Shown here: piece after piece, positions 6,175-26,698 of the stretch | Position numbering within the stretch: position 1 is the stretch's first letter | How the letters are laid out: each line of letters begins with the position of its first letter | From: Hydrogenophaga sp. | Lineage (GTDB): Bacteria > Pseudomonadota > Gammaproteobacteria > Burkholderiales > Burkholderiaceae_C | Length of the DNA: 64,000 nucleotides | Direction of reading: 5' to 3' | Assembly (NCBI RefSeq): GCF_030373245.1 | Contig: NZ_JAUCZF010000003.1 | Span: forward strand, 310,001 to 374,000 | Made by a program: the position numbers and the translations under genes | Notes under the pieces: model-generated | Seen by the model: only the letters and a program-made list of their open reading frames with translations | What the model was told of the DNA's origin: nothing | Databases searched by the model: none

Positions 6175-8604
6175 ATGCCCGCCAAAACCCTGTTCCCTGA
6201 TCAACTGCGTTTGCAGATTGACCCATCCTCCCTGGGATTTGCCTCCACCGCCGACCTGCAGGTACCCAACTTGCCCTGGATTGGCCAGGAGCGTGCCGAA
6301 CAGGCCGCGCGCTTTGGCCTCGCCATGGAGCAGCCAGACTACAACCTGTTCGTGCTGGGCGAGGTGGGCAGCGGACGCGCTTCGCTGTTGCATCAGCTGA
6401 CCCAGGCCGTCGCTGCCGAGCGGGCCGTGCCGCCCGACCTGTGTTACCTGCACAACTTCAAGTCACCTGATCGGCCACGCGCGCTGCGCATGCCGGCCGG
6501 GCAAGGGCGCGTGCTTCGGCAGCTGATGGTGCGTTTTGTCCGCTTTCTGCAAGACGAAATCCCGGCGCGCCTGGACAGCGAGGACTTCAAGACCGACAGC
6601 GAACGCATCGAGAACGTCTACAAGACCGAAGAGACCAAGGCCTATGCCAAGCTCGACGCCTTCGCCGATGCGCATGGCTTCAACCTGTACCGGGAATCGG
6701 GTCGACTGGTGTTCACGCTGCGCGGTGCCAAGGGCGGAGCCCTGACCGAAAACGAGGCCCGTGCCCTGCCCAAGGAACGCCGCGCCCAGGTGGATCAGGC
6801 CGAGCAGGCCTTGCGGGAAGAGATAGCGCAGTTCCTGGAGACCACACGGCCGCTGCTGCGCACTATGAACGAAGGCCTCGCCGCGCTCAGGCGGCAGGTC
6901 GTCAGGCCGCTGATCGACCACGAGCTGCAGGCAATTCGCAATCCTCTGAAAAAACAGATCAAGGACGCGGTCAAGCTCGGCAGCTACCTCGATCAGGTGG
7001 CACAGGATGTGCTCGAGCACCTGGAACTTTTCCTGCCGCAGGACGACGATGATGCTGAGCGCCAGGAAGCCTTGTCTCAGCTGCTGCTGGGCTATCGGGT
7101 CAATCTGGTGGTGGACAACGCCGAACTCGCCGGTGCGCCAGTAATCGTTGAAGACAACCCGGTCTACCACTCGCTGTTCGGGCGCATCGAGTACCAGGCC
7201 GAAGAAGACGTGCTTCTGACCGACTTCTCCCGCGTGCGGGCCGGCAGCCTGATCCGCGCGCACGGTGGCTTTTTGCTGCTGCACCTGCGCGATCTGGTCG
7301 CCGACCCGCTGGTCTGGGAAAAGCTGCGTCGCTTCATGCGCTCGGGCAAGGTGCAGATCGAAGAGCCGAGCAACATGCTGATGCCGATGACGGCAGTTTC
7401 GTTGCAGCCACAGGGGGTGGACGTCCACACCAAGATCATCCTGATCGGCTCCACCGAGGAGTACTACGCGCTGCAGGAAGTCGATCCCGAGTTCGCACGA
7501 CACTTCCGCGCCAAGGTCGATTTCGCCGAAAGCTTTGTTGCCACCGCAGACACGCGCGCGGCCACCGCCCTGTTTGTGGCCCAGACCTGCCGCAAGCTGG
7601 GCCTGCGCCACCTCAGCGCAGCCGCCGTCGCGCGCGTGCTGGAAGACGCACACCGTCGCGTCGACGACCAGTCCCGCCAGAGTGCCATCTTTGGCCATAT
7701 CGAGGCGCTGGTGTCCGAGAGCGCGGCGGCGTGCGATGCGCGCGGCGGCGGCCTCGTGGAGGCGGTGGATGTGGCCTCGGCGCTGGATGCCCACCGGCTG
7801 CGTCACGATTACCCCGAGCAGCGCCTGCGCGAATCGATCATTGAAAGGGAGCGCCTCATCGATGTGCGCGGCGCGCGTGTCGGCCAGATCAACGGCTTGA
7901 CCCAGATCGATCTGGGGGACTGGCGCTTCGGCTTGCCGGTTCGCGTGACCGCACACACCCACGCCGGCTCTCAGGGGCTGCTCAACATCGAGCGTGAGGT
8001 GGCGATGTCTGGCCCGATCCACGACAAGGGCGTGCTGATCCTGCACAGTTACCTGACCCATTTGTTCGCCCACCTCGCGCCACTGGCGCTCAATGCCGCC
8101 CTGGTCTTCGAGCAGGAGTATCACGGTGTCGAGGGGGATTCCGCCTCCTGCGCCGAGCTGTATGCCGTGCTGTCAGCGCTGGCGGGTGTACCCCTCCGGC
8201 AAGGCATCGCGGTGACCGGCGCCCTCAACCAGCACGGCGAGGTGCTGCCGGTGGGCGGCATCAACGAAAAAATCGAAGGCTGGTTCCGCGTCTGCGAGGT
8301 CGCCGGGCTGAACGGTGAGCAAGGTGTGCTGATCCCCGAGCGCAATCGCCGCCACCTGATGCTTGATCAGGCCGTGGTCGCTGCCGTGCAGCAGGGCCGG
8401 TTTCACATCCACACCGCGGCACACATCAGCGACGGCCTGGCGCTGCTCACCGGGCAAGCCTCTGGTCTGCCATCGAGCGGACAGGAGGGGCCTGGCTATG
8501 CGCCCGAGAGCGTGCTCGGACAGGCCGAGCGCAGCCTTCGGGTGTACCGTCGGGCGTATCAGCGCATGGCTGGCCTGCCCCGATTACGCCGGCACTTGCC
8601 CTGA
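6175..8604 (+). CDS. Lon-related ATP-dependent protease (LonB/YcbZ-like)
   Basis: An 809-residue protein of the putative ATP-dependent Lon-type protease family. The N-terminal part carries a P-loop-like GEVGSGRASLL near residue 60, with Arg where most P-loops have Lys, a substitution I believe is common in this family. A long charged helical insert (about residues 110-250) precedes the AAA region, which holds EYQAEEDVLLTDFSRVRAGS and GGFLLLHLRDL. The C-terminal Lon protease domain has the catalytic Ser656 in EGDSASCAELY and Lys699 in INEKIEGW. It lacks the LAN substrate domain of classical LonA. It stands alone, 63 bases after hpnE. Substrates are unknown. Confidence 0.9.
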   Translation: MPAKTLFPDQLRLQIDPSSLGFASTADLQVPNLPWIGQERAEQAARFGLAMEQPDYNLFVLGEVGSGRASLLHQLTQAVAAERAVPPDLCYLHNFKSPDRPRALRMPAGQGRVLRQLMVRFVRFLQDEIPARLDSEDFKTDSERIENVYKTEETKAYAKLDAFADAHGFNLYRESGRLVFTLRGAKGGALTENEARALPKERRAQVDQAEQALREEIAQFLETTRPLLRTMNEGLAALRRQVVRPLIDHELQAIRNPLKKQIKDAVKLGSYLDQVAQDVLEHLELFLPQDDDDAERQEALSQLLLGYRVNLVVDNAELAGAPVIVEDNPVYHSLFGRIEYQAEEDVLLTDFSRVRAGSLIRAHGGFLLLHLRDLVADPLVWEKLRRFMRSGKVQIEEPSNMLMPMTAVSLQPQGVDVHTKIILIGSTEEYYALQEVDPEFARHFRAKVDFAESFVATADTRAATALFVAQTCRKLGLRHLSAAAVARVLEDAHRRVDDQSRQSAIFGHIEALVSESAAACDARGGGLVEAVDVASALDAHRLRHDYPEQRLRESIIERERLIDVRGARVGQINGLTQIDLGDWRFGLPVRVTAHTHAGSQGLLNIEREVAMSGPIHDKGVLILHSYLTHLFAHLAPLALNAALVFEQEYHGVEGDSASCAELYAVLSALAGVPLRQGIAVTGALNQHGEVLPVGGINEKIEGWFRVCEVAGLNGEQGVLIPERNRRHLMLDQAVVAAVQQGRFHIHTAAHISDGLALLTGQASGLPSSGQEGPGYAPESVLGQAERSLRVYRRAYQRMAGLPRLRRHLP

Positions 8605-12070: not shown

Positions 12071-12949
12071 TCACGCGCCCCTGGACAGAAAACGCTCCAC
12101 CAGATCGAGCTGCTCGGGCACGTTGAGGGCTGGCGCATGGCCGCAGCCTTCGATGGTCACCACCAGGGCGCGCGGCCCGCGGTCGCGCATGGCCTCGGCC
12201 GTGTCGGCCAGCAGCAGGTCGGACTCGGCACCGCGCAGACACAGCACCGGCGCGTCGATGCGATCGTACGCGTCCCAAAGCTCGTAATCGGCTGGGTGGT
12301 GGATGAACTGCATCACCATGGCCGGGTCGTAGTGCGGCGTGACCCGGCCATTGGGCAGGCGGCGCGTGGAGCTTTCGGTGAGCAGCGTCCACTGCGCATC
12401 CGACAGATGACCGTAGGGCTTGTAGACGGTGCGAAAGTAGCGCTCCAGCTCGCCCACCGTGGCGAACGAGGCTGGATTGCCCGCGTAGGATCGGATGCGC
12501 TCCACCGCGGGTGCGGCCAGCTGCGGGCCGATGTCGTTGAGCACCAGCCGCTGGATGCGGCCCTGCAGCGCACCGGCGGCACACACCATGCCGATGGCGC
12601 CGCCCATGGAGGTGCCGACCCAGTGGAAGCGGTCAAGCCCCAGCTGATCGACCAGGTCGCTCGCCAGCCTCGCGTAAAACGCCAGGCAGTACTCGGCCTC
12701 GGGCGACGGGCTCCACTGCGACAGGCCGCGGCCGATGGTGTCGGGACAGAGCACGCGGTAGCCCTGGCCTGACAGGTAGGCGGCCAGCGCGTCCATGTCG
12801 CGGCCGGTGCGCGCCAGGCCGTGCCACGCGACGACGGCGCCACGCACTGCCGCTCCCGGCGCGGGTGACCAGTCCATGCAGTGGATCTCACGGTCCGCAC
12901 AGACCAGGTAGCGGGAGCGTGGCACGCCCGGGGCGCGGTCGTCGCTCAC
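12071..12949 (-). CDS. Alpha/beta-fold hydrolase, last gene of the liv operon
   Basis: A 292-residue alpha/beta hydrolase. The oxyanion-hole region is AWHGLARTGRDMDALA, the nucleophile elbow is GTSMGGAIGM near residue 113, and a conserved His lies in IEGCGHAPALNVPEQ near the C terminus; an Asp in the APVLCLRGAESDLLL strand completes a plausible triad. The GTG start at 12949 overlaps the livM stop codon (GTGA), so it is translated with the transporter. This suggests that it processes an imported ester, amide or other carboxylate derivative, but the substrate is unknown. Confidence 0.85.
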   Translation of the reverse strand: MSDDRAPGVPRSRYLVCADREIHCMDWSPAPGAAVRGAVVAWHGLARTGRDMDALAAYLSGQGYRVLCPDTIGRGLSQWSPSPEAEYCLAFYARLASDLVDQLGLDRFHWVGTSMGGAIGMVCAAGALQGRIQRLVLNDIGPQLAAPAVERIRSYAGNPASFATVGELERYFRTVYKPYGHLSDAQWTLLTESSTRRLPNGRVTPHYDPAMVMQFIHHPADYELWDAYDRIDAPVLCLRGAESDLLLADTAEAMRDRGPRALVVTIEGCGHAPALNVPEQLDLVERFLSRGA

Positions 12950-14046
12950 GACAGCCTCCTCAGACGGGCCAGCACCGCACGCTCGCGCAGCTTGCCCACC
13001 ACCCCGCTGGGGAAGTAGTACACGGAGAGTACAAACAGCAGGCCCAGCCAGAGCAGCCAGCGATCGGGCGTGAGCAGCGCCGGCAGCAGCGGGATGCCCT
13101 CCGCGGCCTGACCTGCAGCGCGCAGCAGGTCTTGCAGGTAGCTCTGCGCCAGCACGAACACCACGCTGCCGATCAGCGCGCCGTAGACCGTGCCCATGCC
13201 GCCGATCACGACGATGAGCAGCACGTCGAGCATGATCTCAAACGACAGCGAAGTATCGGGCCCGTTGTAGCGCAGCCAGAGCGCGAGCAGGCAACCCGCC
13301 AGCGTGGCGAACAGCGCCGACAGCACGTTGGATAGCGTGCGGTAGACCACGGTGCGGTAACCCAGCGCCTCAGCGCGGAAGTCGTTTTCCCGGATCGCCT
13401 GCAGCACCCGGCCAAACGGCGAATTCACGATGCGCAGGATGGTCAGGAAAATGCCGCAGGTGGCCAGAAACAGCAGGTAGTAGCTGATCAGTCGCCCGTC
13501 CAGGTAGACCTCGCCCAGCGGCGTGTTCAACGGTTCTTCAAGGAGCTCGAACCCGGGCGAGAGCAGCTCGGGCACACCAAAACTCAGCCCGTCTTCGCCC
13601 CCGGTGAATTCCGAAAGCTGCGAGGCCAGCGTGAGAAATGCCGACGCCACGGCCAAGGTGATCATGGCAAAGAAGATGGCCCTCACCCGAAGCGAAAAGA
13701 GGCCGATCAGCAAAGAGAGCAGCAGCGAGGCCACCAGCGCCGCACCCACGCCCAGCGCCAGCACCCCCCAGCCCGGCTCTTCGGTGGACGACAGCGAAAT
13801 CGCCACGCCGTAGGCGCCGATGCCAAAGAACATGGTGTGGGCGAAGCTCACGATGCCGGTGTAGCCCAGCAGCAGATCGAAGCTGGCCACCAGCGCCACG
13901 AAGATCAGCACCTTGGCCGCCACGTTGAGCGCCTTGACCCCGGGAAACAGGAAGGGCGCAAACGCCAGCCCGAGAAAAAGCACCACCAGCAAAGACGCAA
14001 GCCAGCGGCTGCGCGGCAGGTCGTTGGAGAGGAGTCTTCGGATCAT
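12946..14046 (-). CDS. livM: Branched-chain amino acid-type ABC transporter permease (LivM)
   Basis: A 366-residue inner-membrane permease of the LivM family with around nine to ten hydrophobic segments. The family signature is visible as LLLGYTGIVSFAHTMFFGIGAYGVA near residue 55 and, later, LLIVVIGGMGTVYGALIGSVVFV (EAA-like loop contacting the ATPases). The ATG at 14046 was chosen because the sequence upstream encodes Arg/Pro-rich residues and lies in a repeated intergenic element. It overlaps the hydrolase gene downstream and follows livH after 154 bases. Confidence 0.92.
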   Translation of the reverse strand: MIRRLLSNDLPRSRWLASLLVVLFLGLAFAPFLFPGVKALNVAAKVLIFVALVASFDLLLGYTGIVSFAHTMFFGIGAYGVAISLSSTEEPGWGVLALGVGAALVASLLLSLLIGLFSLRVRAIFFAMITLAVASAFLTLASQLSEFTGGEDGLSFGVPELLSPGFELLEEPLNTPLGEVYLDGRLISYYLLFLATCGIFLTILRIVNSPFGRVLQAIRENDFRAEALGYRTVVYRTLSNVLSALFATLAGCLLALWLRYNGPDTSLSFEIMLDVLLIVVIGGMGTVYGALIGSVVFVLAQSYLQDLLRAAGQAAEGIPLLPALLTPDRWLLWLGLLFVLSVYYFPSGVVGKLRERAVLARLRRLS

Positions 14047-14200: not shown

Positions 14201-15187
14201 TCATCTGGAGGTCACCGGATAAACGCCTTGTGGGCGCCACAGCAAGATGGCGACCATGAGCGCGATGTTGGAAAACAGCGCGACCTTAGGCACCAGGAAA
14301 CCGGTGTAGTTCGCCATCAGCCCCACCAGCAAGGCACCGATCAGCGCCCCCAGCGTGGAGCCCAGGCCACCGATGATAATGACGATGAAGATCAGCACAT
14401 TGACCTGCGCCCCCATCTGCGGAATCACGCTCTGCTGGTACAGGCCCCACATCACGCCACCCAGACCGGCCAGCGCGCTGCCGGCCACGAACACACCGAC
14501 AAACAGTCGCTTGATGCGGTAGCCCAGCGACTCGACCATCTCGCGGTCCTGCACGCCGGCGCGGATCAGCAGGCCGACCTTGGTGCGGTTCAACGTCCAC
14601 ACCATGGCCGCAAACACCGCGGTGCCGACCAGCACGGCCAGGATGCGGTATTTCTCCACCGCCGCGTCGCCAAAGATCAACGAGCCGCGCAGCGCTTCGG
14701 GCAGGGGCAGCGGGATCTGCTGCGGACCCCAGATCACCTTGATCAGCTCCTCGCCAATGATCATTCCGCCCATGGTGATCAGGATCTGCTTGAGGTGCAT
14801 GCCGTACACCGGTCTGATGATCAGCCGTTCAAACACCAGGCCCAGCGCGCCCGCCACCGCCATCGCCGCCAGCATGGCGGGAAACAGCGCCACGAGGTTG
14901 AGCCAGAGACTGTCGGCGGTGGTGTAACTGCCCATGCTGCCCAGCACCGTGGTGGCCACGAACGCTCCCAGCGCGATGAACACGCCGTGGCCGAAGTTAA
15001 GCACGTCCATCAGGCCGAACACCAGGGTGAGGCCCGAGGCGATGATGAAGATGATCATGCCCATGGCCAGGCCGGCCACCGTCAGCGTGAGCCAGGTCGA
15101 GGCGCTGCCCGTCAGCGGCAAGGCGATCAGTGCCAGCGCCGGCACCAGCGCCATCGGTTTCCAGTCAAGTTCTTTGAGTGTGATCAT
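14201..15187 (-). CDS. livH: Branched-chain amino acid-type ABC transporter permease (LivH)
   Basis: A 328-residue inner-membrane permease of the LivH family. The characteristic ASGLTLVFGLMDVLNFGHG is near residue 48, with GVFIALGAFVA just after it, and the cytoplasmic EAA-type loop FIVIIIGGLGSTLGALIGA is near residue 268. About eight to nine hydrophobic segments are present. The ATG at 15187 was preferred over a longer frame because it puts the first membrane segment at the usual position. It pairs with LivM as the transmembrane heterodimer. Confidence 0.92.
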   Translation of the reverse strand: MITLKELDWKPMALVPALALIALPLTGSASTWLTLTVAGLAMGMIIFIIASGLTLVFGLMDVLNFGHGVFIALGAFVATTVLGSMGSYTTADSLWLNLVALFPAMLAAMAVAGALGLVFERLIIRPVYGMHLKQILITMGGMIIGEELIKVIWGPQQIPLPLPEALRGSLIFGDAAVEKYRILAVLVGTAVFAAMVWTLNRTKVGLLIRAGVQDREMVESLGYRIKRLFVGVFVAGSALAGLGGVMWGLYQQSVIPQMGAQVNVLIFIVIIIGGLGSTLGALIGALLVGLMANYTGFLVPKVALFSNIALMVAILLWRPQGVYPVTSR

Positions 15188-15272: not shown

Positions 15273-16010
15273 TCATGGATGCGCTCCCAGTGAAAGGCCA
15301 AGCAGCCTGGACTGCATCGATTCGTCGGCCGCCAGCTCGGCCATGGAGCCGCTGTGAACCACGCGGCCGTCGTCCATCACCGCCATGGAGTCGCCCAGCT
15401 GCTTGGCGAAGTTGAAGTTCTGCTCCACGAGCAGGATGGTGGTCTGGGCCGCCTTGAGCTGCCGGAAAGCCTCGATCATGTTCTGGACGATGGCGGGCGC
15501 CAGGCCCTTGCTAGGCTCGTCGATGAGCAGCAGCTGGCGCGGCTCGACGATGGCGCGCGAGACCGCCAGCATCTGCTTCTGTCCGCCGCTGAGCTTGCCT
15601 GCCGGGTGGTTCCAGAATTTCTTCATGGCCGGGAACAGGCCGAAGATCCATTCCAGCCTCGTGGTGTCGATGTCGTCCAGCGTTCTCGCCCCGCGCGCCG
15701 CCAACAGCATGTTTTCCCTCACCGAGAGGTCGGAAAAAATGCCCATGCTCTCGGGCACGTAGGCCACACCCCCTTGTGCGATGTCGGGCGTCGGGCGGTG
15801 TGTGATGTCTTGTCCGTCGAGCACCACCCGGCCCTGACTGGCCTGCCACAGGCCCATGATGGTGCGCAGCGTGGTGGTCTTGCCCGCGCCATTGCGGCCC
15901 AGCAGCAGCGTGAGTTCACCCTGCGGCACCACCAGGTCCACCCCATGCAGGATGTGGTACGCGCCGATGTGCGTGTGCACACCTTCTAGCGTCAGCAACG
16001 GAGCACTCAT
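15273..16010 (-). CDS. livF: ABC transporter ATP-binding protein (LivF)
   Basis: A 245-residue ATPase. Walker A GRNGAGKTT near residue 38, signature LSGGQKQMLAVSRAI near residue 140, Walker B LLLIDEPSKGLAP near residue 160, and a switch His region beyond it. SKGLAP is typical of LivF. It energises transport together with LivG. It overlaps livG by four bases (16007-16010), consistent with coupling, and is followed by an 85-base gap before livH. Confidence 0.93.
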   Translation of the reverse strand: MSAPLLTLEGVHTHIGAYHILHGVDLVVPQGELTLLLGRNGAGKTTTLRTIMGLWQASQGRVVLDGQDITHRPTPDIAQGGVAYVPESMGIFSDLSVRENMLLAARGARTLDDIDTTRLEWIFGLFPAMKKFWNHPAGKLSGGQKQMLAVSRAIVEPRQLLLIDEPSKGLAPAIVQNMIEAFRQLKAAQTTILLVEQNFNFAKQLGDSMAVMDDGRVVHSGSMAELAADESMQSRLLGLSLGAHP

Positions 16011-16765
16011 GCGTCCACCTCTTCCGGGTTGATGCCCAGATAGGCCTGCTGCACCACCGGGGAAGCGATCACAGCCGCGGGCTCGCCATCGGCCACCAGT
16101 TCGCCGTTGTGCAGCACGATGATGCGGTCCGAGAGTTCGCGCACCACGTCCATCTTGTGTTCCACCAGCAGAATGGTCTTGGTCCGGTCGGCCTTGAGGT
16201 TGCGGATGAGGTTGAGGATCACCGGCGCTTCATCGACGCTCATGCCCGCCGTGGGTTCGTCGAACATGAAGACCTGCGGCTCCAGTGCCATCAGGATGCC
16301 GACCTCCAGCTTGCGCTGGTCGCCGTGCGGCAGGCTGCTGGCGAGCTGATCGCCCTTCTCCGCCAGCGCCACGGCTTCCAGCACCTCGTCGGCCCGCACC
16401 ACGAGGTCGCGACGGTCGCTCCAGATGCGCCAGAGATTCAACCCCGCGCCGGCTCGAGCCTGCACCGCGAGCCGCACGTTTTCGCGCACCGTCAAATTCG
16501 GAAACAGGTTGGTGAGCTGGAACGCCCGGCCCAGACCGGCCTGGGCGCGTGCGGGCGCGCTCAGGGTCGAGATGTCGACGCCATTGAGCTTCACCTTTCC
16601 GGCCGACGCCTTGATCTGGCCCGAGATGAGGTTGAAGTACGTGGTCTTGCCCGCCCCGTTGGGGCCCACGATAGCGGTCAGCGTGCCCGGCTCGAACGCG
16701 CAGGACACGGCATTCACCGCCACGTGCCCGCCAAAGCGGGCCGTGAGATCAGAAGTTTCAAGCAT
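16007..16765 (-). CDS. livG: ABC transporter ATP-binding protein (LivG)
   Basis: A 252-residue ATPase of the LivG family. Walker A GPNGAGKTTYFNLISG is near residue 37, the signature region is SLPHGDQRKLEVGIL near residue 150 (the LSHGxQR form usual in LivG), and Walker B is VFMFDEPTAGMS. The start at 16765 (MLETSDLTARFGG) was chosen over upstream codons because the frame above it lies in repeat copy B. It is the first ATPase gene after the binding-protein gene and is coupled to livF. Confidence 0.93.
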   Translation of the reverse strand: MLETSDLTARFGGHVAVNAVSCAFEPGTLTAIVGPNGAGKTTYFNLISGQIKASAGKVKLNGVDISTLSAPARAQAGLGRAFQLTNLFPNLTVRENVRLAVQARAGAGLNLWRIWSDRRDLVVRADEVLEAVALAEKGDQLASSLPHGDQRKLEVGILMALEPQVFMFDEPTAGMSVDEAPVILNLIRNLKADRTKTILLVEHKMDVVRELSDRIIVLHNGELVADGEPAAVIASPVVQQAYLGINPEEVDA

Positions 16766-16928: not shown

Positions 16929-18128
16929 TCAGCGCTTGTTGCGAATCGGCACGTCCATCTCGGCCGGCTTGATCTCGCGCACCAGCTCAGGCACACCCCA
17001 GGCAAACGCCGGATCGACCTTGATCTTGAAGTGGTACATGCTCTGCATCGCCTGATGGTCTTCCTTGCGGAAGGTCATGGTGCCCTTGGGCGTCTCGAAG
17101 CTCATGCCCTCCATGGTCTTGATGAGCTTGTTGGTGTTGGTGTCGCCGTTGCTCTTCTTGAGCGCCGTCACCACCGCCATTGCCGCCGAGAAGCCACCCG
17201 CGGTGAAGAAATCGGGTGGGCTCTTGAATTCCTTGTAATGCTGGGCGACCAGGGCCTCGTTCACCGGGTTCTTCGGGAGGCCGAAGTAGTAGTAGGTCGC
17301 GCCTTCCATGCCGGGAAAGTTCTTGTACGCCGCCATCGCGGGCAGGATGTTGCCGCCCGTCGCGATCTCGATGCCGTAGCGCTTCAGGTCCAGGTCGGCG
17401 ATCTTGAACGGATTGCCCGCGCCGGCCCAGATGATGAAGATCACCTTGCGACCAGGCTGGTCCTTGAGTTTGTCGATCAGGCGCTGGGCACCGGCCGTGA
17501 AGTCGGTCGTGCTGGTCGGCAGGTACTCCTCGTGCACGATCTTGGCGGTTTTGATCGCGTCCTTGAACGCCTTCACTCCGTCACGACCAAACGCGTAGTC
17601 CTGCGCCAGCGTGGCCACGCTCACGCCGGCCTTGTCGAGCGCCACGGCGTTGGAGATCGCGTCCTGGCTGCTGTTGCGCCCGGTGCGGAAGATGTATTTG
17701 TTCCACTTCTCACCAGTGATCGAATCGGCCACGGCGGGCTCGACGACCAGGATCTTCTTGTATTCCTCGGCCACCGGCAGCATGGCCAGCGCCACGCCCG
17801 ACGACGTGGGGCCCACGGCGATGTCGGCCTTGTCGTCCGAGTAGGCGGTGGCCAGCAGGCTGCGGCCCAGATCGGGCTTGCCCTGGTCGTCTTTCTCGAT
17901 CACCACCAGTTTTTTGCCCGCCACCATCATCGTGCCGCCGGTCGCGTACTCCAGACCCATGCGGAAGCCGGTGGTGGTCTGCTTGCCATAGGCCTCCAGG
18001 GGACCGGTGAGGCTGTGCACGTGGGCGATGCGGATCTCGCCGCCGGCCTGGGCCAGGGCCGCCGTGGATGCAAGGGCGGCCGAACAGGCAAGGGCAATCA
18101 CCGCAAAGCGGCGGGTGGTCTGGGTCAT
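16929..18128 (-). CDS. livK: ABC transporter periplasmic substrate-binding protein (LivK type)
   Basis: A 399-residue type I periplasmic binding protein. A signal peptide covers about residues 1-26 (core VIALACSAALASTAALAQA), and the mature protein starts GGEIRIAHVHSLTGPLEAYGKQ, the form typical of amide/carboxylate-binding LivK homologues. An AGGAGA ribosome-binding site lies eight bases before the ATG at 18128, which settles the start. It is the first gene of livK-G-F-H-M-hydrolase and follows a sigma-54-type promoter. The ligand may be a branched-chain amino acid, an amide or an aromatic carboxylate; the sequence alone does not decide. Confidence 0.9.
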   Translation of the reverse strand: MTQTTRRFAVIALACSAALASTAALAQAGGEIRIAHVHSLTGPLEAYGKQTTTGFRMGLEYATGGTMMVAGKKLVVIEKDDQGKPDLGRSLLATAYSDDKADIAVGPTSSGVALAMLPVAEEYKKILVVEPAVADSITGEKWNKYIFRTGRNSSQDAISNAVALDKAGVSVATLAQDYAFGRDGVKAFKDAIKTAKIVHEEYLPTSTTDFTAGAQRLIDKLKDQPGRKVIFIIWAGAGNPFKIADLDLKRYGIEIATGGNILPAMAAYKNFPGMEGATYYYFGLPKNPVNEALVAQHYKEFKSPPDFFTAGGFSAAMAVVTALKKSNGDTNTNKLIKTMEGMSFETPKGTMTFRKEDHQAMQSMYHFKIKVDPAFAWGVPELVREIKPAEMDVPIRNKR

Positions 18129-18180: not shown

Positions 18181-18196
18181 CGCAGGCTTCATGCCA
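18181..18196 (-). promoter_or_regulatory. Sigma-54 (-24/-12) promoter of the liv operon
   Basis: Read on the minus strand, the sequence is TGGCATGAAGCCTGCG. It has GG and GC dinucleotides separated by exactly ten bases and matches the consensus TGGCAYG-N4-YTGC closely. It would place the transcription start at about 18170, some 42 bases before the livK start codon. The adjacent gene encodes a sigma-54 activator, which makes the site much more credible. Confidence 0.8.
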
Positions 18197-18248
18197 GACA
18201 CGCGCGCCTTGATTTCAAAGGTTTTTTTGAAGCAACACCTTGTCGCTC

Positions 18249-18316
18249 GCCTGAAATTCAGACACATCCATCGATAAAAATGTCTATTTTTCAGACATCT
18301 GTCTGTTTTTCAGGCG
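18249..18316. promoter_or_regulatory. Candidate upstream activator sites for the sigma-54 regulator
   Basis: Three related partial palindromes lie in this stretch: GCCTGAAATTCAGACA (18249-18264), TGTCTATTTTTCAGACA (18281-18297, perfect TGTCT/AGACA arms) and TGTCTGTTTTTCAGGCG (18300-18316). They share the pattern TGTCTG-A/T-rich-CAGRC. Their centres are about 86, 119 and 138 bases upstream of the predicted start, the usual distance for enhancer sites of NtrC-type activators. The two distal copies overlap the last codons of the activator gene itself. Confidence 0.65.
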
Positions 18317-19775
18317 TTTGGGCCAACCGATCGTACAGGCTGGCGCGCGATATCCCCAGCAGTCGCGCGGCGGCCGCGCGGTTGCCGCCGGTGTGTGCCA
18401 ATGCCTCGGCGATGGCCGCCTGCTCGAGCGCGGCGATGCGGTCGGCCAGCGGCTGGATCGAAGTGCTACCGGTCGGCGACGCGCCCCCATCACGCGGCGC
18501 CTCGGCCACCAACGCGGGCGCAGGCGCCACCTGGCCGGACGCAGCCAGCACCGTGCGCACCTGGTCGACGTCGATCTGCGCCGAATCGCTGCGCAAGGCC
18601 AGCTGCTCCAGCACGTTGCGCAGTTCGCGGATGTTGCCGCGCCAGGGCTGAGCGGCCAACAGCGACAGGGCAGGCGCGCTGAGCTCCATGTGCTCACCCG
18701 CTCCGCGCACCGCGATGTCTTCGCACAGGGTTTCGGTGAGCAGGGTGATGTCGCCCTGGCGGTCCCGCAAGGGCGGCACCCTGATCGGCAGCACATTGAG
18801 GCGGTAGAACAGGTCTTCCCGGAAGTCACCATCGCGCACCATCTGCGCCAGGTCGCGTGAGGTGGCGGCAACCACGCGCACATCCACGCTCACCAGCTTG
18901 TTCGAGCCCAGCGGCTCCACCTCGCCCTCCTGCAAGGCGCGCAGCAGCTTGACCTGCACCGAAGGCGGCATGTCCCCCAGCTCGTCCAGAAACAGCGTGC
19001 CGCCGTCGGCCAGCTTGAACTTGCCATCGCGCCCCTTCTTGTCGGCCCCGGTGTAGGCCCCTGGCGCCACGCCGAAAAACTCGGCCTCCAGCAAGGTGTC
19101 GGGCACGGCCGCCATGTTCACGCTGACGAACGCCCGCCCGGCGCGCGGCGAAGCGGCGTGGATGGCATGGGCCAGCAGCTCCTTGCCGGTGCCGGTCTCA
19201 CCCAGCAGCAGCACCGGGCTGCTCGACTGCGCCGCGCGACGCGCCTGGCGCTTGACCTCCAGCGCGCCGGCCGAGGTGCCGACGAAGCTGGCAAAGGTGT
19301 ATTTGCTGCGGCGCTGATTCGCCAGCTCGCGCCGGGCGTCGTTCAGGTCTTGCTCCAGCCGCGCAAACTTGCTGATGAGCGGTTGCAGCGTGGTCTCGGG
19401 GTGGTCGAACAGCACGATGCCCAGCACACCGATCACGTCGCCCGACTCGTCGCGCAAGGGAATGCGGCTGACCACAAACGTACCGGCCTTGTTGGTCAGC
19501 AAGTCGATCAGAATCGGTTTGCCGGTGGCCAGCACCTGGTGCATCTGGGTGTTCTGCACCACGCTGGAGACCGGATGACCGACAAAGTCGCTCTCACGCT
19601 CGAAGCCCAGGGCAGGCAGGAAGCGACGGTACTGGTCGTTGATCCAGACCACGCGGCCCAGGCGGTCCACCAGCATCATGCCCTCGCTGGCGTTCGCAAA
19701 CAGGTCGAACATCGACCTGGCAGCGAGTTCAAGAATGCTTTGTGCGTCGCGCGGCAGGCGGTCGTCCCGTGTCAT
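18291..19775 (-). CDS. Sigma-54-dependent transcriptional activator with N-terminal PAS domain
   Basis: A 494-residue NtrC-family activator. An N-terminal PAS-like sensor (about residues 15-140, with [20 protein letters not shown]) is followed by the AAA+ domain: Walker [16 protein letters not shown], the sigma-54 contact loop GAYTGA (Tyr in place of the usual Phe), and Walker [13 protein letters not shown]. The C-terminal Fis-type helix-turn-helix is [20 protein letters not shown]. No receiver domain is present, so it probably senses a small molecule directly. It lies immediately upstream of livK on the same strand, with a sigma-54 promoter between them, so it most likely controls the liv operon. 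Confidence 0.93.
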
Positions 19776-19814: not shown

Positions 19815-21308
19815 TCAGGCGCGTCGGTGCCAGGCCAGCAGGCGCGGCGTGACCAGCACCAGCACCACCACCGCCAGCAGCGTGGCCGACATCGGGCGCT
19901 GTACAAACACGAGCCAGCTGCCTTCCCCGATCGACAAGGCGTTGCGCATTTGCGCTTCGGCCAGTGGCCCGAGGATGAGGCCGACGATGACGGGTGCGGT
20001 GGGGAAGTCGTAGCGCCGCATCAGCACGCCGAGCATGCCCAGGCCATACATAAGGTAGAGGTCAAATGCGCTCTGGCGCATGCCGTACACGCCCACGGTG
20101 GCGAAGATCAGGATACCGGCGTAGAGCTGAGGTTTGGGAATCTTGAGCAGCTTGACCCACAGGCCCACCAGCGGCAGGTTGAGCACCAGCAGCATCACGT
20201 TGCCGATGTAGAGCGAGGCGATCAGCGCCCAGACCAGGTCGCCCGAGGTCTGGAACAGCTGCGGGCCGGCGTTGATGCCGTAGTTCTGCAGGGCGCTGAG
20301 CAGGATGGCGGCGGTGACCGAGGTCGGAATGCCCAGCGTCAGCAGGGGCACGAGCGTGGCGGTGACCGCGGCGTTGTTCGCCGCCTCGGGGCCGGCCACG
20401 CCTTCGATGGCGCCGGTGGTGCCGAACTCGGCCTGGTGCTCGGGTTTGGCCAGCTTGCGCTCAGCCGCGTAGCTGAGGAAGGTCGGGATCTCCGAGCCGC
20501 CCGCGGGAATGGTGCCAAATGGAAAACCGATGGCGGTACCGCGCAGCCAAGCAGGCCAGGAGCGGCGCCACTCGGTGCGTGTCATGTGCACCTTGTTGAG
20601 CTTGTTCATGTCGTTGGCGCTGCGGCCCTCGTAGAGCGCGTTGTACAGCGCCTCGGCCACTGCAAACAGGCCCACGGCCACCAGCACCACCTCGACGCCG
20701 TCCATGAACTCCATCACGCCGCCGGTGTAGCGCACCTGCGCGGTGATCTGGTCGATGCCCACCAGGCCCAGTGCCAGGCCGAAGAACAGCGCGGTCAGAC
20801 CGCGCAACGTGCTCTTGCCCAGCACCGCGCTGACCGTGGTGAAGGCCAGCAGCATCAGACAGAAATACTCCGGTGGGCCCAGCTGCACCGCGAACTTGGC
20901 CAGGATGGGCGCAAACAGCGTGACCAGCACCGTGGCGATGCTGCCGGCCACAAACGAGCCGATGGCCGACGTGGCCAGCGCGGCGCCAGCGCGGCCATGT
21001 TTGGCCATCTTGAAGCCCTCGAGCGCGGTCACCATGGTGCCGGTCTCGCCGGGCGTGTTGAGCAGGATGGACGTGGTCGATCCACCGTACATGGCACCGT
21101 AGTAGATACCAGCAAAAAAGATCATCGACGCGGTGGGTTCGACCTGCCCGGTGATGGGCAGCAGCATCGCCACTGTCACCGCCGGACCCAGGCCCGGCAA
21201 CACTCCAATGGCCGTACCCAGCGCGCAACCCGCCAGCGCCCACAGCAAGTTGACCGGCGTGGCAGCGGTGGCGAAGCCGCCAAGCAGTTGGGTGAGGATG
21301 TCGGTCAT
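19815..21308 (-). CDS. tctA: Tripartite tricarboxylate transporter, large membrane subunit
   Basis: A 497-residue inner-membrane protein with around eleven to twelve hydrophobic segments. The family signatures are visible: [19 protein letters not shown] near residue 38, [20 protein letters not shown] near residue 64, and [19 protein letters not shown] near residue 262. TctA is the ion-coupled transport subunit of the TTT system. Its start is four bases downstream of the tctB stop. Substrate type (citrate or another carboxylate) is not determined by sequence. Confidence 0.95.
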
Positions 21309-21312
21309 GGCG

Positions 21313-21870
21313 TCAGATCCAGCCGCTGCTGGAGATGCCCGGCAGATTCACCGCCAGCAGCTTGGTGAACAGCCAGTACACCGGCGCGGCGATCAGCATG
21401 CCGGTGACAGCGTCGATCAGCGTCTGGCGCAGGTTGCCAGCTGGCTTGCCTTCGCTGGCACGAAGGCCGCGCACCGCCAGCGTGAAGCACAGAGCACAGC
21501 TCAGGATGAAGCCGATGGTGGTGATGAGCGTGGCGTTGAGCAACACGCCGGCCGACACCCAGGCCAGCGCAACCCAGTCGCCGCGCGGTGCGCCAGAGGG
21601 CGTCTCCATTTGTCGATAGCCGCCGGTCAGCGCTTCGAAGATCAGCAGGCTGCCACAAATGGCCATGGCCGCGCTGATGACCCAGGGCAGGAAGTTGGGC
21701 CCGACGCCCGCGTAACCGGCTTCGGACGAGATGGATGTGGCGCCATACGCCAGCACCGCGGCCAACCCCAGCGCGCCCAGACCCACCAGCAGCTGACCCG
21801 CGCCTCGCGTGGCGACGGGGGGCTCACTGGCCCCCGGCGAGGAGGGTTCGAGAGGGCGTGAGGAATTCAT
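21313..21870 (-). CDS. tctB: Tripartite tricarboxylate transporter, small membrane subunit
   Basis: A 185-residue protein with four hydrophobic segments, the usual TctB topology. The N-terminal 25 residues are hydrophilic (Ser/Pro-rich), followed by [23 protein letters not shown] conserved [18 protein letters not shown] stretch is near residue 55. The start at 21870 ([10 protein letters not shown]) is preferred over an upstream frame extension that would add 21 residues. It pairs with TctA in the inner membrane. Confidence 0.88.
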
Positions 21871-21981
21871 GTGAAGAGTCCATGCGGCAGCCGTACCCGG
21901 CGCCTCGATCGCACCGGCGAGCCAGCAGTACAAAAAAGGGGCCCGGTACGCGTCAGCGAACGGGCCTGCGGCGGGACAAGG

Positions 21982-22941
21982 TCAGACCATGCCCGCGCGC
22001 ACCATGGTCGCGCGAAGCGACGAGAAGTCGCGATCCACGAATTCGTCGAACGACTTGCCGGTGAGCAAAGCGGCGGTCCAGTTGTTCTTGGTCAGCGACT
22101 CGGTCCAGCTCGGGCTCTTGGTTGCGCGCACCACCAGCGCGGTCAGTGCATCGCGCTGAGCTGCCGAGATGCCTGCGGCGCCGAACACGCCGCGCCAGTT
22201 GCCGATCTCCACATTGATGCCCTGCTCTTTCAGCGTGGGGATGTTGATGCCTGGCAGCCGCTGCGCCGAGGTGACGGCGATGGCGCGCATCTTGCCGGAT
22301 TCGATGTATTGCTGGAACTCGCTGTAACCGCTGCCGCCCACGGTGACGTTGCCACCCAGAATGGCTGCCGTGGCTTCGCCACCGCCCCGGAACGGCACGT
22401 AATTGATTTTGGAGGCCTGCACGCCCACCGCCTGCGCGATCTGCGCCGCCGCGATGTGCTCGGTGGAGCCGCGCGAGCCGCCGCCCCATTTCACGCTGCC
22501 CGGATCTTTCTTGAGCTGGTCCACCACGTCCTTCATCGACTTGAATGGGGAGTCGGCCGGCAGCACGAACACGTTGTACTCGGTGGTGAGACGCGCAATC
22601 GGGGTGAGTTGCGTCACCGAGACCGGCGGCTTGCCGGTGATGATGCCGCCCAACATGACGGCGCCCATGACCATCAGCGCGTTCGGATCGCCCTTGCTGG
22701 CGTTGTAGAACTGCGCCAGGCCAATCGCGCCCGCAGCGCCGCCCTTGTTCTCGAAGGTCACCGAAGACGCTGCACCGGCGTCCTGCAAGGCCTTGCCCAG
22801 CGCGCGGCCGGTGCTATCCCAGCCACCGCCCGGGTTGGCGGGGATCATCATCTTGAGGTTGCCGTTGGCCCAGGCCACGGAGGGCATGGCACCAGCAGCG
22901 GCCAGGGCGGCCAGAGATTTGAGGAAGGTGTCGCGACGCAT
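21982..22941 (-). CDS. tctC: Tripartite tricarboxylate transporter periplasmic binding protein
   Basis: A 319-residue extracytoplasmic receptor (Bug/TctC family). The N terminus MRRDTFLKSLAALAAAG matches a twin-arginine-type signal (RRxxFLK) with a hydrophobic core ending at AWA. The mature protein has the family motifs MMIPANPGGGWDSTGRALG and, later, ENKGGAAGAIG. It captures the carboxylate in the periplasm and presents it to TctAB. It is the first gene of tctCBA and is divergent from the two-component genes tctDE across a 193-base gap. Confidence 0.94.
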   Translation of the reverse strand: MRRDTFLKSLAALAAAGAMPSVAWANGNLKMMIPANPGGGWDSTGRALGKALQDAGAASSVTFENKGGAAGAIGLAQFYNASKGDPNALMVMGAVMLGGIITGKPPVSVTQLTPIARLTTEYNVFVLPADSPFKSMKDVVDQLKKDPGSVKWGGGSRGSTEHIAAAQIAQAVGVQASKINYVPFRGGGEATAAILGGNVTVGGSGYSEFQQYIESGKMRAIAVTSAQRLPGINIPTLKEQGINVEIGNWRGVFGAAGISAAQRDALTALVVRATKSPSWTESLTKNNWTAALLTGKSFDEFVDRDFSSLRATMVRAGMV

Positions 22942-23001
22942 GGCTGTCTCCTTGTGTTGAGGTCTGCGCCTGAATGATGCGTGCTGGCCCTGTCAAACAG
23001 C

Positions 23002-23020
23002 TGTCCGTGCGCTACGGACA
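23002..23020. promoter_or_regulatory. Palindromic operator candidate between tctC and tctD
   Basis: A perfect inverted repeat, TGTCCGT-GCGCT-ACGGACA, with seven-base arms and a five-base spacer. It lies 61 bases before the tctC start codon and 115 bases before tctD, in the only gap of the divergent locus. It is a natural candidate for binding by the TctD response regulator. Direct evidence is limited to the symmetry and position. Confidence 0.5.
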
Positions 23021-23134
23021 AACCCTAGTGCTCCGACCTCCCCATGCTTCGCACCTGAGCGGACGGATGGACAAAGCATGGGCCGGGTTGCCACTGACCA
23101 CGAAGCGTCCGGCGCTCACGATAATGACCACCGG

Positions 23135-23827
23135 ATGAAACTGCTCCTCATCGAAGACAACCCCACCATGCAGGCCACGCTGCAGCGCAGCTTTGAGCGC
23201 CGGGGCATGCAGGTGCTGTCCTGTGGCGATGGCGCCAAGGCGCTGGCCGTGTGGCATGCCTGTCTGCCCGATGCGGTGCTGCTCGATCTCAGCCTGCCCG
23301 GTCGCGACGGGTTGCAGGTGCTGGGCGATGCGCGCGCCGCTGGCCTCACCACGCCTGTCATCATCCTCACGGCCCGCGGCACCGTGGGCGACCGCATCAT
23401 CGGGCTGAACACCGGGGCCGACGACTACCTCCCCAAACCGTTCGATCTTGACGAACTGGAAGCGCGGGTTCGCGCCCTGGTTCGCCGGAGTGCCAGCGCC
23501 AACGAGGCTTCGCGCGACCCACTGGCCGTGTCGGTCGACTGGTGTGGTTTGCGGGTGGATCACGACAGCGGCGCCGTCTATGCAGAGGGTCTGCCGCTGG
23601 AACTGCCGCCGCGCGAGCTGGCTTTGCTGCGCGCCTTGCTGCAGCGACCTGGCCATGCGATCGCCAAGGAGCGCTTGTTCGAGGCCGTGTTTCCGGGCGA
23701 CACCACAGCCCAGCCCGAGGCCATCGAAGTGGTCGCCTACAGGCTGCGCAAGAAGCTTGCCGACACAGGCGTGCAGCTCGTCACCCTGCGCGGACTGGGT
23801 TACCTGCTCAAGGCCGGTCCGGCATGA
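23135..23827 (+). CDS. tctD: OmpR-family response regulator of the tct locus
   Basis: A 230-residue regulator. The receiver domain (about residues 1-115) contains the acidic pocket IEDN, the phosphorylated Asp51 in VLLDLSLPGRDG, the switch Thr in IILTARG and Lys in YLPKPFD. The C-terminal winged-helix domain has the ELPPRELALLRALLQRPG and EVVAYRLRKKL motifs. The ATG at 23135 places the receiver motif at residue 7. It is divergent from tctCBA and next to a histidine kinase gene, the arrangement known for citrate-responsive TctDE/BctDE systems. Confidence 0.93.
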   Translation: MKLLLIEDNPTMQATLQRSFERRGMQVLSCGDGAKALAVWHACLPDAVLLDLSLPGRDGLQVLGDARAAGLTTPVIILTARGTVGDRIIGLNTGADDYLPKPFDLDELEARVRALVRRSASANEASRDPLAVSVDWCGLRVDHDSGAVYAEGLPLELPPRELALLRALLQRPGHAIAKERLFEAVFPGDTTAQPEAIEVVAYRLRKKLADTGVQLVTLRGLGYLLKAGPA

Positions 23828-23855
23828 ATCTCCACCCATCTGGCTGGACCGCCGC

Positions 23856-25322
23856 TTGACGCGCACCGACGCCCGCCCGCTGTCGCTGCGCCGAACGCTG
23901 CTGCTCGGCATTCTGATGCCGGTGCTGGGCTTTCTGCTGATCAACACGGCGGTCTTGTACCGCCAGGCGCTGATCGCCGCCGACACGGCCTACGACCGCA
24001 CCCTTCTGGCGACTGCGAAGTCGCTGGGCGAACAGCTGCAGGTAGTGGGCACGGCGCAAGCGCCGCAGGTTCAGTCATCCCTGCTCTACTCGGCCCTCGA
24101 AGCGTTTGAGGCCGACAACCGCAGCCGGCTGTTTTACCGGGTGAACGGCTTTTCGGGCGACATGGTGTCCGGCTTCGAAGACCTCCCTGCGCCTCGCGCG
24201 AGCCTACCCGAGCAAAACATCTACGCCGCGCTGGTGCACTTCTACGACGAAGACTACCGCGGCACGCCGGTGCGCATGGCGGTGTTGCTGCAACCGGTGG
24301 CCGGCGCGGCGGGCCAGGGCATGGCGACCATCCAGGTGGCCGAAACCCTGGAACTGAGGCAGACACTGGCGCGCCAGATTCTGGTCGACACGCTGTGGCG
24401 CCAGGCGGCGCTGGTGCTGGTCATTGTGGGCGTTGTGGTGCTGGTGGTTCAGCGCGCCACCCAGCCGGTGCGAGCGCTGAGCCGGTCGCTTGCCGCGCGC
24501 AGCGAAAACGATTTGTCGCCGCTGCCCGTGGCCGACGCGCCTCGCGAACTGCTGCCGCTGGTGGAAGCGACCAACCAGCACATGGCGCGCTTGTCGCAAC
24601 TGCTTGACCACCAGAAGCGTTTTGTGCGCGACACCTCGCACCAGCTGCGCACCCCGTTGGCCGTACTCAAGACCCAGCTGCAGTCGGCGCGCCGCGGCGA
24701 CGTTGAGCCAGCGCAAGCGCTCGACGAGATCGCAAACACGGTGGAGCGTGCCACCGAGCTTGCCAACCAGATGCTGGCACTGGCCAAGGTCGAGCAGCTG
24801 CGAGAGGACCGCGACCCACCCGTGACCGACTGGGACGATGTGCTGCGCCAGGTGGCACTCGACCTGGCGCCCCTGATCGCAGAACGATCTCTCGATTTTT
24901 CGCTGGAGAGTCGGCCGGCTCCCGTGCATGCCCACCCCTGGGCGCTGCGAGAGCTCTGCCGCAACCTGGTGCACAACGCGATCAAGCACTCACCACCTGG
25001 TGCGCCACTGACGGTTGTGCTGCACGCTACCTCGGTCGAGGGCACGCTGACCGTGAGCGACAGCGGTCCCGGGGTATCGGCGGCCCTGCGCGATCGCCTG
25101 TTCCAGCCGTTTGCCACCGAAACTGGTGACAGCGCTTCGGGCAGCGTGGGACTGGGACTCACCATCTGCCACGGGATCGTGCAGTCGCTGGGGGGGCGCA
25201 TTTCGCTGGACAACCGCCTCTCGCAAGGTCACACCAACGGCCTTGACGCCCGTGTGCAACTGCCCCTGGCACTCAACGCCCCTTCCACCCCACAGGCCAA
25301 TCCATCCTCGACTCCGTCATGA
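23856..25322 (+). CDS. tctE: Sensor histidine kinase of the tct locus (5' end possibly frameshifted)
   Basis: A kinase of about 488 residues from the TTG at 23856. It has an N-terminal membrane segment (LLLGILMPVLGFLLINTAVLY), a periplasmic TctE-type N domain, a second membrane segment near residue 180 (LVLVIVGVVVLVVQ), a HAMP-like linker, the H-box DTSHQLRTPLAVL (His262), and N, G1 and G2 boxes (NLVHNAIKH, SDSGPGVS, GSVGLGLTIC). No ATG with a ribosome-binding site exists at the expected place in this frame. An ATG at 23825, overlapping the tctD stop, is out of phase by one base. Adding one C in the CCACCC at 23833-23838 would join it to the kinase frame. The start is therefore uncertain. Confidence 0.85.
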   Translation: MTRTDARPLSLRRTLLLGILMPVLGFLLINTAVLYRQALIAADTAYDRTLLATAKSLGEQLQVVGTAQAPQVQSSLLYSALEAFEADNRSRLFYRVNGFSGDMVSGFEDLPAPRASLPEQNIYAALVHFYDEDYRGTPVRMAVLLQPVAGAAGQGMATIQVAETLELRQTLARQILVDTLWRQAALVLVIVGVVVLVVQRATQPVRALSRSLAARSENDLSPLPVADAPRELLPLVEATNQHMARLSQLLDHQKRFVRDTSHQLRTPLAVLKTQLQSARRGDVEPAQALDEIANTVERATELANQMLALAKVEQLREDRDPPVTDWDDVLRQVALDLAPLIAERSLDFSLESRPAPVHAHPWALRELCRNLVHNAIKHSPPGAPLTVVLHATSVEGTLTVSDSGPGVSAALRDRLFQPFATETGDSASGSVGLGLTICHGIVQSLGGRISLDNRLSQGHTNGLDARVQLPLALNAPSTPQANPSSTPS

Positions 25323-25768: not shown

Positions 25769-26698
25769 TCAATTGCGCCGTGTGCCCAGCCACATCACGG
25801 TGGCCACCACCAGCAGGCCACCGGCCACCTGCACCGGTGCAATCGTTTGCCCCAGCAGCAACCACGCCAACACCAGCGCAAAAATCGGCTCCACGTTCAT
25901 GATGGCCGAGTTGCCCACCACGCCCAGGCGCGGCAACACGGTGAACATGATGGTGAACGCGGTGCCGTACAGCGCCGTCAGTCCGAGCAGTCCGACCCAG
26001 CCCAGCGGCGCCTGCGGCAGCTGAAAGCCGCCCTGGGTGGCCACCCCCAGCATTGCGAGCACGGCCACGATGGACAGTGTGGTGAAGGTGCGCCAGCGGC
26101 CGTCAATGTCGCCCGCCTCGTGCTGGGTCAGCACCAGCGCCAGGCCAAAGGTGGCCGCCGCCGCGAGGGCAAACGCAACGCCCACACCAATCTGTGCCCA
26201 GTGCGCCGAAGCCTGCAGACCAGAGGCGGCGCCGAACACATCGAGCGCCAGCGTCAGTCCCACCAGAATCACCGGCATGGCGCGCAACACTTGCGGTGCC
26301 GGCCGGTGCTGGTACAACACGCGCGCCCACAGCGCTGTCCACAGCGGGTAGGTGTTGAAGGCCAGCAAGGCCAGCGCCACCGGCAGGCGCGCAACCGAGG
26401 AATACAGGCACAGGCTTTGCACCGCCACCAGCACACCTATCGCCGGCAAAGCCCTGCGCTGCCGCGGCCCGATGCGCAGCGGAACGCGGTACATCCGAAG
26501 CAGCAGGCCCACCGCCAGCACGGTCGCACCGCTGCGAAACGCCACCGCCGTGGCCACATCCACGCCATGATCAAACGCCAGCCGCGCCGCCACGTGATTG
26601 GCTCCCATCATGAAAGCGATCAGCAGCAGGATGGCAAACGCGGTGCCGGTGAGCGGGGAAACGGAGCTTGTCTTGGGAGCCATCGCGCCATTGTCCAT
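25769..26698 (-). CDS. EamA-family (drug/metabolite transporter) membrane protein
   Basis: A 309-residue protein with ten hydrophobic segments arranged as two five-helix EamA repeats. The first begins AFAILLLIAFMMGANHVAARLAFDHG; the second ends APVQVAGGLLVVATVMWLG. Family members export metabolites or amino acids across the inner membrane. The ATG at 26698 was used; another at 26683 would remove five residues. It is convergent with hslR, with only 12 bases between the stops. No substrate can be inferred. Confidence 0.87.
   Translation of the reverse strand: MDNGAMAPKTSSVSPLTGTAFAILLLIAFMMGANHVAARLAFDHGVDVATAVAFRSGATVLAVGLLLRMYRVPLRIGPRQRRALPAIGVLVAVQSLCLYSSVARLPVALALLAFNTYPLWTALWARVLYQHRPAPQVLRAMPVILVGLTLALDVFGAASGLQASAHWAQIGVGVAFALAAAATFGLALVLTQHEAGDIDGRWRTFTTLSIVAVLAMLGVATQGGFQLPQAPLGWVGLLGLTALYGTAFTIMFTVLPRLGVVGNSAIMNVEPIFALVLAWLLLGQTIAPVQVAGGLLVVATVMWLGTRRN

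Follow-up and report, generated by a model that had tools for sequence, protein, structure and literature searches.

The livK operon of this Hydrogenophaga sp. is preceded by what we consider, on the letters of the DNA, a genuine and conserved sigma-54 enhancer promoter together with its activator gene. As a sequence feature this switch is near certain. The genes that travel with it point to a 3-hydroxybutyrate (3HB)- or oligomer-responsive sigma-54 regulon as its most likely role. Such a regulon would vary the HbcR theme by coupling it to an ABC importer. To our knowledge, it is poorly understood how bacteria sense insoluble extracellular PHB and import its cut products. The family that holds the relatives described below includes PHB degraders.

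We analysed a 64-kb stretch of DNA (hereafter the window). On its minus strand the genes are arranged in the order activator, a 162-base gap, livK, livG, livF, livH, livM and an alpha/beta hydrolase gene (Table 1). An earlier note on this DNA had read the first of these genes as a PAS-AAA-Fis sigma-54 activator with a GAYTGA loop, and both the Pfam domains and the sequence agreed with that reading. The protein has the AAA domain, the GAFTGA-type loop and the HTH by which activators of sigma-54 enhancer promoters are recognized. By pattern, the loop of 81 loci reads GAYTGA in 68, GAFTGA in 12 and GRVTGA in one. The closest named activators are mostly from Hydrogenophaga, and an rpoN gene is present in the window's genome. 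The upstream neighbour of the activator is a tctA-like gene, judging from its ORF translation. By eye, the ORF translations of positions 19815-25322 show a tctCBA-type transporter and a two-component pair adjoining the activator, and in many relatives, too, the activator has a tctA homologue close by.

Table 1. Features of the activator-livK region and of the downstream operon (positions in the window)
Feature	Position	Strand	Description
Activator gene (EBP)	18291..19775	minus	494 aa; PAS, sigma-54 AAA+ with GAYTGA loop, Fis-type HTH (Pfam; loop by sequence)
Operator 3 (distal) CGCCTGAAAAACAGACA	18300..18316	minus	12/16 to consensus; third best in 64 kb; entirely within the activator gene
Operator 2 TGTCTGAAAAATAGACA	18281..18297	minus	13/16; second best in 64 kb; spans the activator stop codon (18291-18293)
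Operator 1 (proximal) TGTCTGAATTTCAGGCG	18248..18264	minus	14/16; best in 64 kb
Degenerate IHF-like site AATCAAGGCGCGC	18202..18214	minus	many relatives have WATCAANNNNTTR at that place
Sigma-54 -24/-12 box TGGCATGAAGCCTGCG	18181..18196	minus	GG-N10-GC spacing; box of at least 10/12 before livK in 62/68 relatives
livK-type periplasmic binding protein	16929..18128	minus	Peripla_BP_6 (Pfam); ATG at 18128, AGGAG upstream
livG-type ATPase	16007..16765	minus	profile matches
livF-type ATPase	15273..16010	minus	profile matches
livH-type permease	14201..15187	minus	profile matches
livM-type permease	12946..14046	minus	profile matches
Alpha/beta hydrolase, candidate intracellular (oligo)ester hydrolase	12071..12949	minus	Abhydrolase_1 (Pfam)

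The -24/-12 box was found where the earlier note had placed it, with the GG-N10-GC spacing, reading from 18196 down to 18181. Scored by the general sigma-54 box consensus, TGGCATGAAGCCTGCG matches nine of the 12 fixed positions, and with a matrix made from loci outside the genus it ranks only fourth among the box-like sites on both strands of the 64 kb. Judged by its letters, the window box alone is unremarkable and, at 9/12, weak; the operators and the conservation carry the case. Two sigma-54-like boxes elsewhere on the plus strand of the window, AGGCACAGGCTTTGCA (26406-26421) and TGGCACAGGATGTGCT (6998-7013), have matrix scores above that of the livK box.

Each of the operators is a 17-bp imperfect palindrome with the consensus TGTCTGAA-N-TTCAGACA, and the half-motifs recognized earlier are its arms. 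With a matrix made from relatives outside the genus, the three sites scored 25.6, 22.5 and 19.4 bits and were the top three in the window, the next site scoring 10.2. With the start site placed by inference 12 bases past the GC, the operator centres are ~86, 119 and 138 bases upstream of it, in agreement with the three partial palindromes reported 86-138 bases upstream. The reported overlap of the enhancers with the 3' end of the activator gene was also observed, operator 2 lying across the stop codon and operator 3 inside the gene. A terminator-like hairpin called on the plus strand (18292-18305) corresponds to the facing arms of operators 2 and 3.

A match to the activator at E≤1e-80 was present in 80 of 150 family genomes, the window's own genome being one of the 150. 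Loci of 80 relatives were fetched, and 68 of these have livK downstream of the activator on the same strand. The other 12 were left out: nine whose livK lies beyond the stretch or in the opposite orientation, one at a contig end (G141), one second paralogue (G096) and one without livK (G018). A box of at least 10/12 precedes livK in 62 of the 68 relatives and an operator of at least 12/16 in 60; six have no such box and eight no such operator. The palindromes and the GG/GC box are, therefore, conserved upstream of livK, which was the check proposed for them, and the locus has both the conserved -24/-12 box and the conserved upstream activator sites of a sigma-54 enhancer promoter. At one locus (L056) the box reads TAG, not TGG, so that the box scan missed it and gave an odd distance there.

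Over 69 loci (window included), 62 boxes and 111 operators were counted in the real stretches versus totals of ~2.3 boxes and 0.6 operators in shuffled ones; these counts come from related genomes that are not independent, and the operator consensus was derived from the very loci later counted, which is circular in form. The circularity cannot explain an excess of such size over the shuffles. In a scan of the 150 whole genomes, for which livK was not consulted first, 20 places had at most one mismatch to the operator, whereas the reversed pattern gave three. Sixteen of the 20 places were just upstream of livK. In a named, partly overlapping set, livK is downstream in 76 of 80 loci, 74 of these have a box of at least 9/12, and 183 operators of at least 12/16 were counted.

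The position of the activator gene varies among the relatives. It lies more than 600 bp from livK in 20 of the 68 loci; a box was found before livK in 16 of these 20 and an operator in 14. Where livK is outside the activator's locus or on the opposite strand (nine genomes), eight have the box, four an operator of at least 12/16 and six one of at least 11/16. Such a box was found in none of five livK genomes without an activator match, two of which are only 85-86% complete, and one of the five has a lone 12/16 operator-like site; a genome with only 88 bases upstream (G048) and one with a partial livK at a contig end (G093) were left out of this set. To judge from these counts, the element before livK goes with the presence of the activator and not with its location. 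A chance origin of the box and operators was ruled out by the shuffles and by the genomes without an activator match. Of 49 loci with close linkage (window included), 23 have an operator that begins before the activator stop codon; in loci with a large distance between activator and livK, it is livK that the element precedes. As the element follows the activator's presence and not its location, the overlap of the enhancers with the activator gene is probably an incidental side effect of spacing.

In many relatives the operators lie at about -67, -91 and -110 relative to the box. In the Hydrogenophaga loci they are mostly near -68, -102 and -121; here the distal pair sits about one helical turn further out, its two members still 19 bp apart. 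Among the periods tried, 11 bp was the strongest for the operator distances (98 sites that share ancestry; R 0.58, and 0.40 on distinct distances). Scored by the general IHF consensus, 31 of 67 loci having a box of at least 9 (window included) matched at 8/9 or better versus 2.9 expected, and 24 of the matches share a single position 18 bases upstream of the box. In the window this site is only half kept, with AATCAA at the usual place followed by GGCGCGC. The description of the control region as complete holds, with this half-kept IHF-like element as the single reservation. The window promoter may rely on flanking A-tracts instead.

We also looked at operators away from livK. The window's genome has nine places with up to three mismatches to the operator, two of them in the activator-livK gap (the third window operator, with four mismatches, is outside this count), and the reversed control gave four. 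None of the other seven places has a correctly oriented box of at least 10/12 within 300 bases. Four of the 20 near-perfect operators of the family scan are not at livK. L133 (G084:C63) has a tandem pair of operators and a 10/12 box ahead of an ORF cut by the contig end, possibly a second target in G084. L136 (G110:C250) combines a 15/16 operator with an 11/12 box that follows it by 136 bases in the correct geometry, and the next reading frame on that strand resembles an acyl-CoA dehydrogenase by eye; G110 has no activator match at E≤1e-80, and its operator and box do not fit the activator-linked pattern. L135 (G113) has a 15/16 copy and a 10/12 box, its adjoining gene reads as TetR-type by eye, and neither activator nor livK was found in this 3-kb locus. 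At L138 (G087), the operator is without a box. A different situation was observed in G095, where the activator (L079) adjoins a different liv operon (four subunits with 32-41% identity) with an 11/12 box and three 12/16 operators, and the PHB-type liv operon is on another contig with a weaker box; one activator perhaps serves two importers there. The regulon had been described as self-contained. With a second operator-plus-box site in G095 and another in G084, this may not strictly hold for every relative.

The operon encodes a transporter with the Liv-type domains Peripla_BP_6, BPD_transp_2 and ABC_tran. Its five subunits resemble the Liv and Urt models, yet all score below the listed cut-offs of both. 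The closest solved binding proteins to LivK are 3n0x and 3nnd, and a literature search for their ligand gave only false matches. A homologue of the alpha/beta hydrolase is downstream in 51 of the 68 relatives. Some relatives have an extra enzyme between livK and livG. Two of these enzymes, scanned with NCBIfam, matched the extracellular type 2 short-chain-length PHA depolymerase model NF050059 (378 and 382 bits; cut-off 280), one such enzyme had the PHB depolymerases 2d80/2d81 as its best solved-structure matches, and three of four scanned passed Pfam Esterase_PHB while one failed. After livM, some relatives encode a 3HB-oligomer hydrolase (3HBOH; PF10605), the three scanned scoring 971-1078 bits (cut-off 27). 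By tblastn with two examples of each, the stretches read contained the depolymerase in 17 of the 68 relatives, 3HBOH in 18 and at least one of the two in 27; the remaining 41, some with short stretches, had neither. Within the named Hydrogenophaga set, the depolymerase gene sits at this place in H. taeniospiralis and Hydrogenophaga sp. A37. Nothing over the cut-off for NF050059, PF10605 or NF050058 was found in the window's genome (90.9% complete), and positive-control genomes matched. A wider PHB regulon was considered and rejected: the type 1 depolymerases elsewhere in G114 and G047 are without operators. In three relatives that were scanned (L085, L090 and L094), a methyl-accepting chemotaxis protein with an sCache domain is encoded between activator and livK, possibly for chemotaxis to the same compound.

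The kin of the activator were also compared. In a tree that left out L118 (39% identity) and Pseudomonas PA2005, and in which long rows were cut to 520 residues, the window's activator group forms a clade of its own (99/100), nested in a 100/100 clade that also contains regulators linked to GntP and 3HB dehydrogenase, and does not group with six further EBPs from the same genome. Among the full-length kin of ~50% identity, L271 adjoins a TRAP transporter with a 3HB dehydrogenase nearby, and L116/L275 a 3HB dehydrogenase. L270, from another family, adjoins a TRAP transporter and a FadX-like CoA-transferase (below the cut-off of that model), and its gap has two operators (13 and 14 of 16) and the box TGGCATGAAGCCTGCC. 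TRAP genes also adjoin the activator kin at L272, while L273 and L280 have no such neighbour among those tested. An Azospirillum kin has a different liv-type operon beside it. A 49% identical Cupriavidus protein, with a sigma-54 box, adjoins a GntP permease and a 3HB dehydrogenase, a neighbourhood that we take to be the HbcR arrangement of Pseudomonas. Three HbcR-type gaps have a sigma-54 box, and the operator TGTCTGAA-N-TTCAGACA was not found in them.

These observations are consistent with the following model. The PAS-AAA-Fis protein would bind to the tandem 17-bp palindromes, and its PAS domain would sense (R)-3-hydroxybutyrate or a short 3HB oligomer. The GAYTGA loop would then contact the sigma-54 RNA polymerase at the -24/-12 box, the contact being aided by DNA bending, probably by IHF in many relatives. 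The predicted operon transcript would encode an ABC importer of the Liv type that takes up 3HB or its oligomers, together with a putatively cytoplasmic esterase that splits 3HB oligomers. In many relatives, the operon would add a secreted PHA depolymerase and/or a 3HB-oligomer hydrolase, freeing 3HB or its oligomers from PHB. The earlier note had left the inducer unnamed. A prediction, 3HB or its oligomers, can now be put in that place, because a PHA depolymerase or 3HBOH is in the operon of 27 of the 68 relatives and because several of the nearest activator kin adjoin 3HB-dehydrogenase, GntP or TRAP-transporter genes. It is still a prediction from genes travelling along: 3HB as the inducer is a good prediction, not a result. 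We consider it probable that a sigma-54 promoter with enhancers serves the livKGFHM-hydrolase operon, that the activator senses 3HB or an oligomer and that the importer takes up 3HB or oligomers. A narrower form of the proposal, in which a dedicated ABC importer brings in 3HB oligomers that are split inside by the hydrolase of the operon and sensed by the sigma-54 activator, is more tentative, and we would give it somewhat less than an even chance.

Other explanations were weighed against the 3HB model. The switch could be real while the importer carries a branched-chain amino acid, an amide or another small acid that the activator senses, the PHB genes being passengers. The match of the subunits to Liv and Urt models, even though below the cut-offs, would fit such a substrate, and so would the 41 relatives and the window's genome in which neither depolymerase nor 3HBOH was seen; the recurrence of one or the other downstream in 27 relatives, and the 3HB dehydrogenase beside several activator kin, make this explanation unlikely. 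Somewhat less probable still is that the activator senses a related short acid (3-hydroxyvalerate, acetoacetate or broader 3-hydroxyacids) and not 3HB itself. L270, where similar operators and a box precede a TRAP transporter and a FadX-like CoA-transferase and not PHB genes, speaks for a related acid, whereas the depolymerase and oligomer hydrolase families of the relatives are of the short-chain-length PHA/3HB types.

A palindrome does not tell its binder, and the sites could belong to a different regulator, for example a TetR-type repressor, with only the -24/-12 box belonging to the activator. The operator copy beside the TetR-type gene at L135, away from activator and livK, and the operator and box of G110 without an activator match would agree with this. 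Against it, the sites at livK track the activator's presence, occupy enhancer-like positions and are found again next to a 52% identical activator in another family; we regard a different binder as very improbable. The 3HB-responsive regulon is retained as our preferred reading.

If correct, the narrower reading with oligomer import would describe an uptake-and-regulation route for the PHB bioplastic. The window organism, in which no secreted depolymerase was seen, would then scavenge what is released from neighbours or dying cells. The proposal names one regulator, one operator sequence and one importer, all conserved in many family members, and each is directly testable. A literature search over titles and abstracts, with most subscription journals outside its scope, gave no description of this activator, operator or importer, and this absence is weak evidence of novelty.

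Several known systems can be compared with the one proposed here. In relatives, genes for the NF050059 depolymerase and the PF10605 3HBOH follow the same activator and livK, whereas they are absent from the window's operon and were not found in the window's genome. Classical sigma-54 enhancer promoters with IHF are of the NtrC/NifA/XylR type, and upstream tandem palindromes and a -24/-12 box are common to these and to the window system, as is an IHF-like site in many relatives. The window system differs in having its own operator, TGTCTGAA-N-TTCAGACA, and in its IHF-like core, whose start is ~18 bases upstream of the box in relatives and of which the window retains only half. The nearest theme is that of HbcR. 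The available parts of two reports describe HbcR (PA2005) of Pseudomonas as a regulator of (R)-3-hydroxybutyrate catabolism that is activated by (R)-3HB (PMC8694187, PMC10482368). HbcR/RpoN and the window system both have a PAS domain and a sigma-54 activator. The window's activator is in a separate clade (99/100), outside the GntP/3HB-dehydrogenase-linked group, in a tree that does not hold PA2005. As this operator was not found in the HbcR-type gaps, which do have a sigma-54 box, the HbcR signal cannot simply be carried over. HbcR has gntP and a 3HB dehydrogenase gene adjacent, whereas the window's activator instead has liv genes and a hydrolase downstream, and it is predicted to control a Liv-type ABC importer, the hydrolase and, in relatives, often PHB-degrading enzymes.
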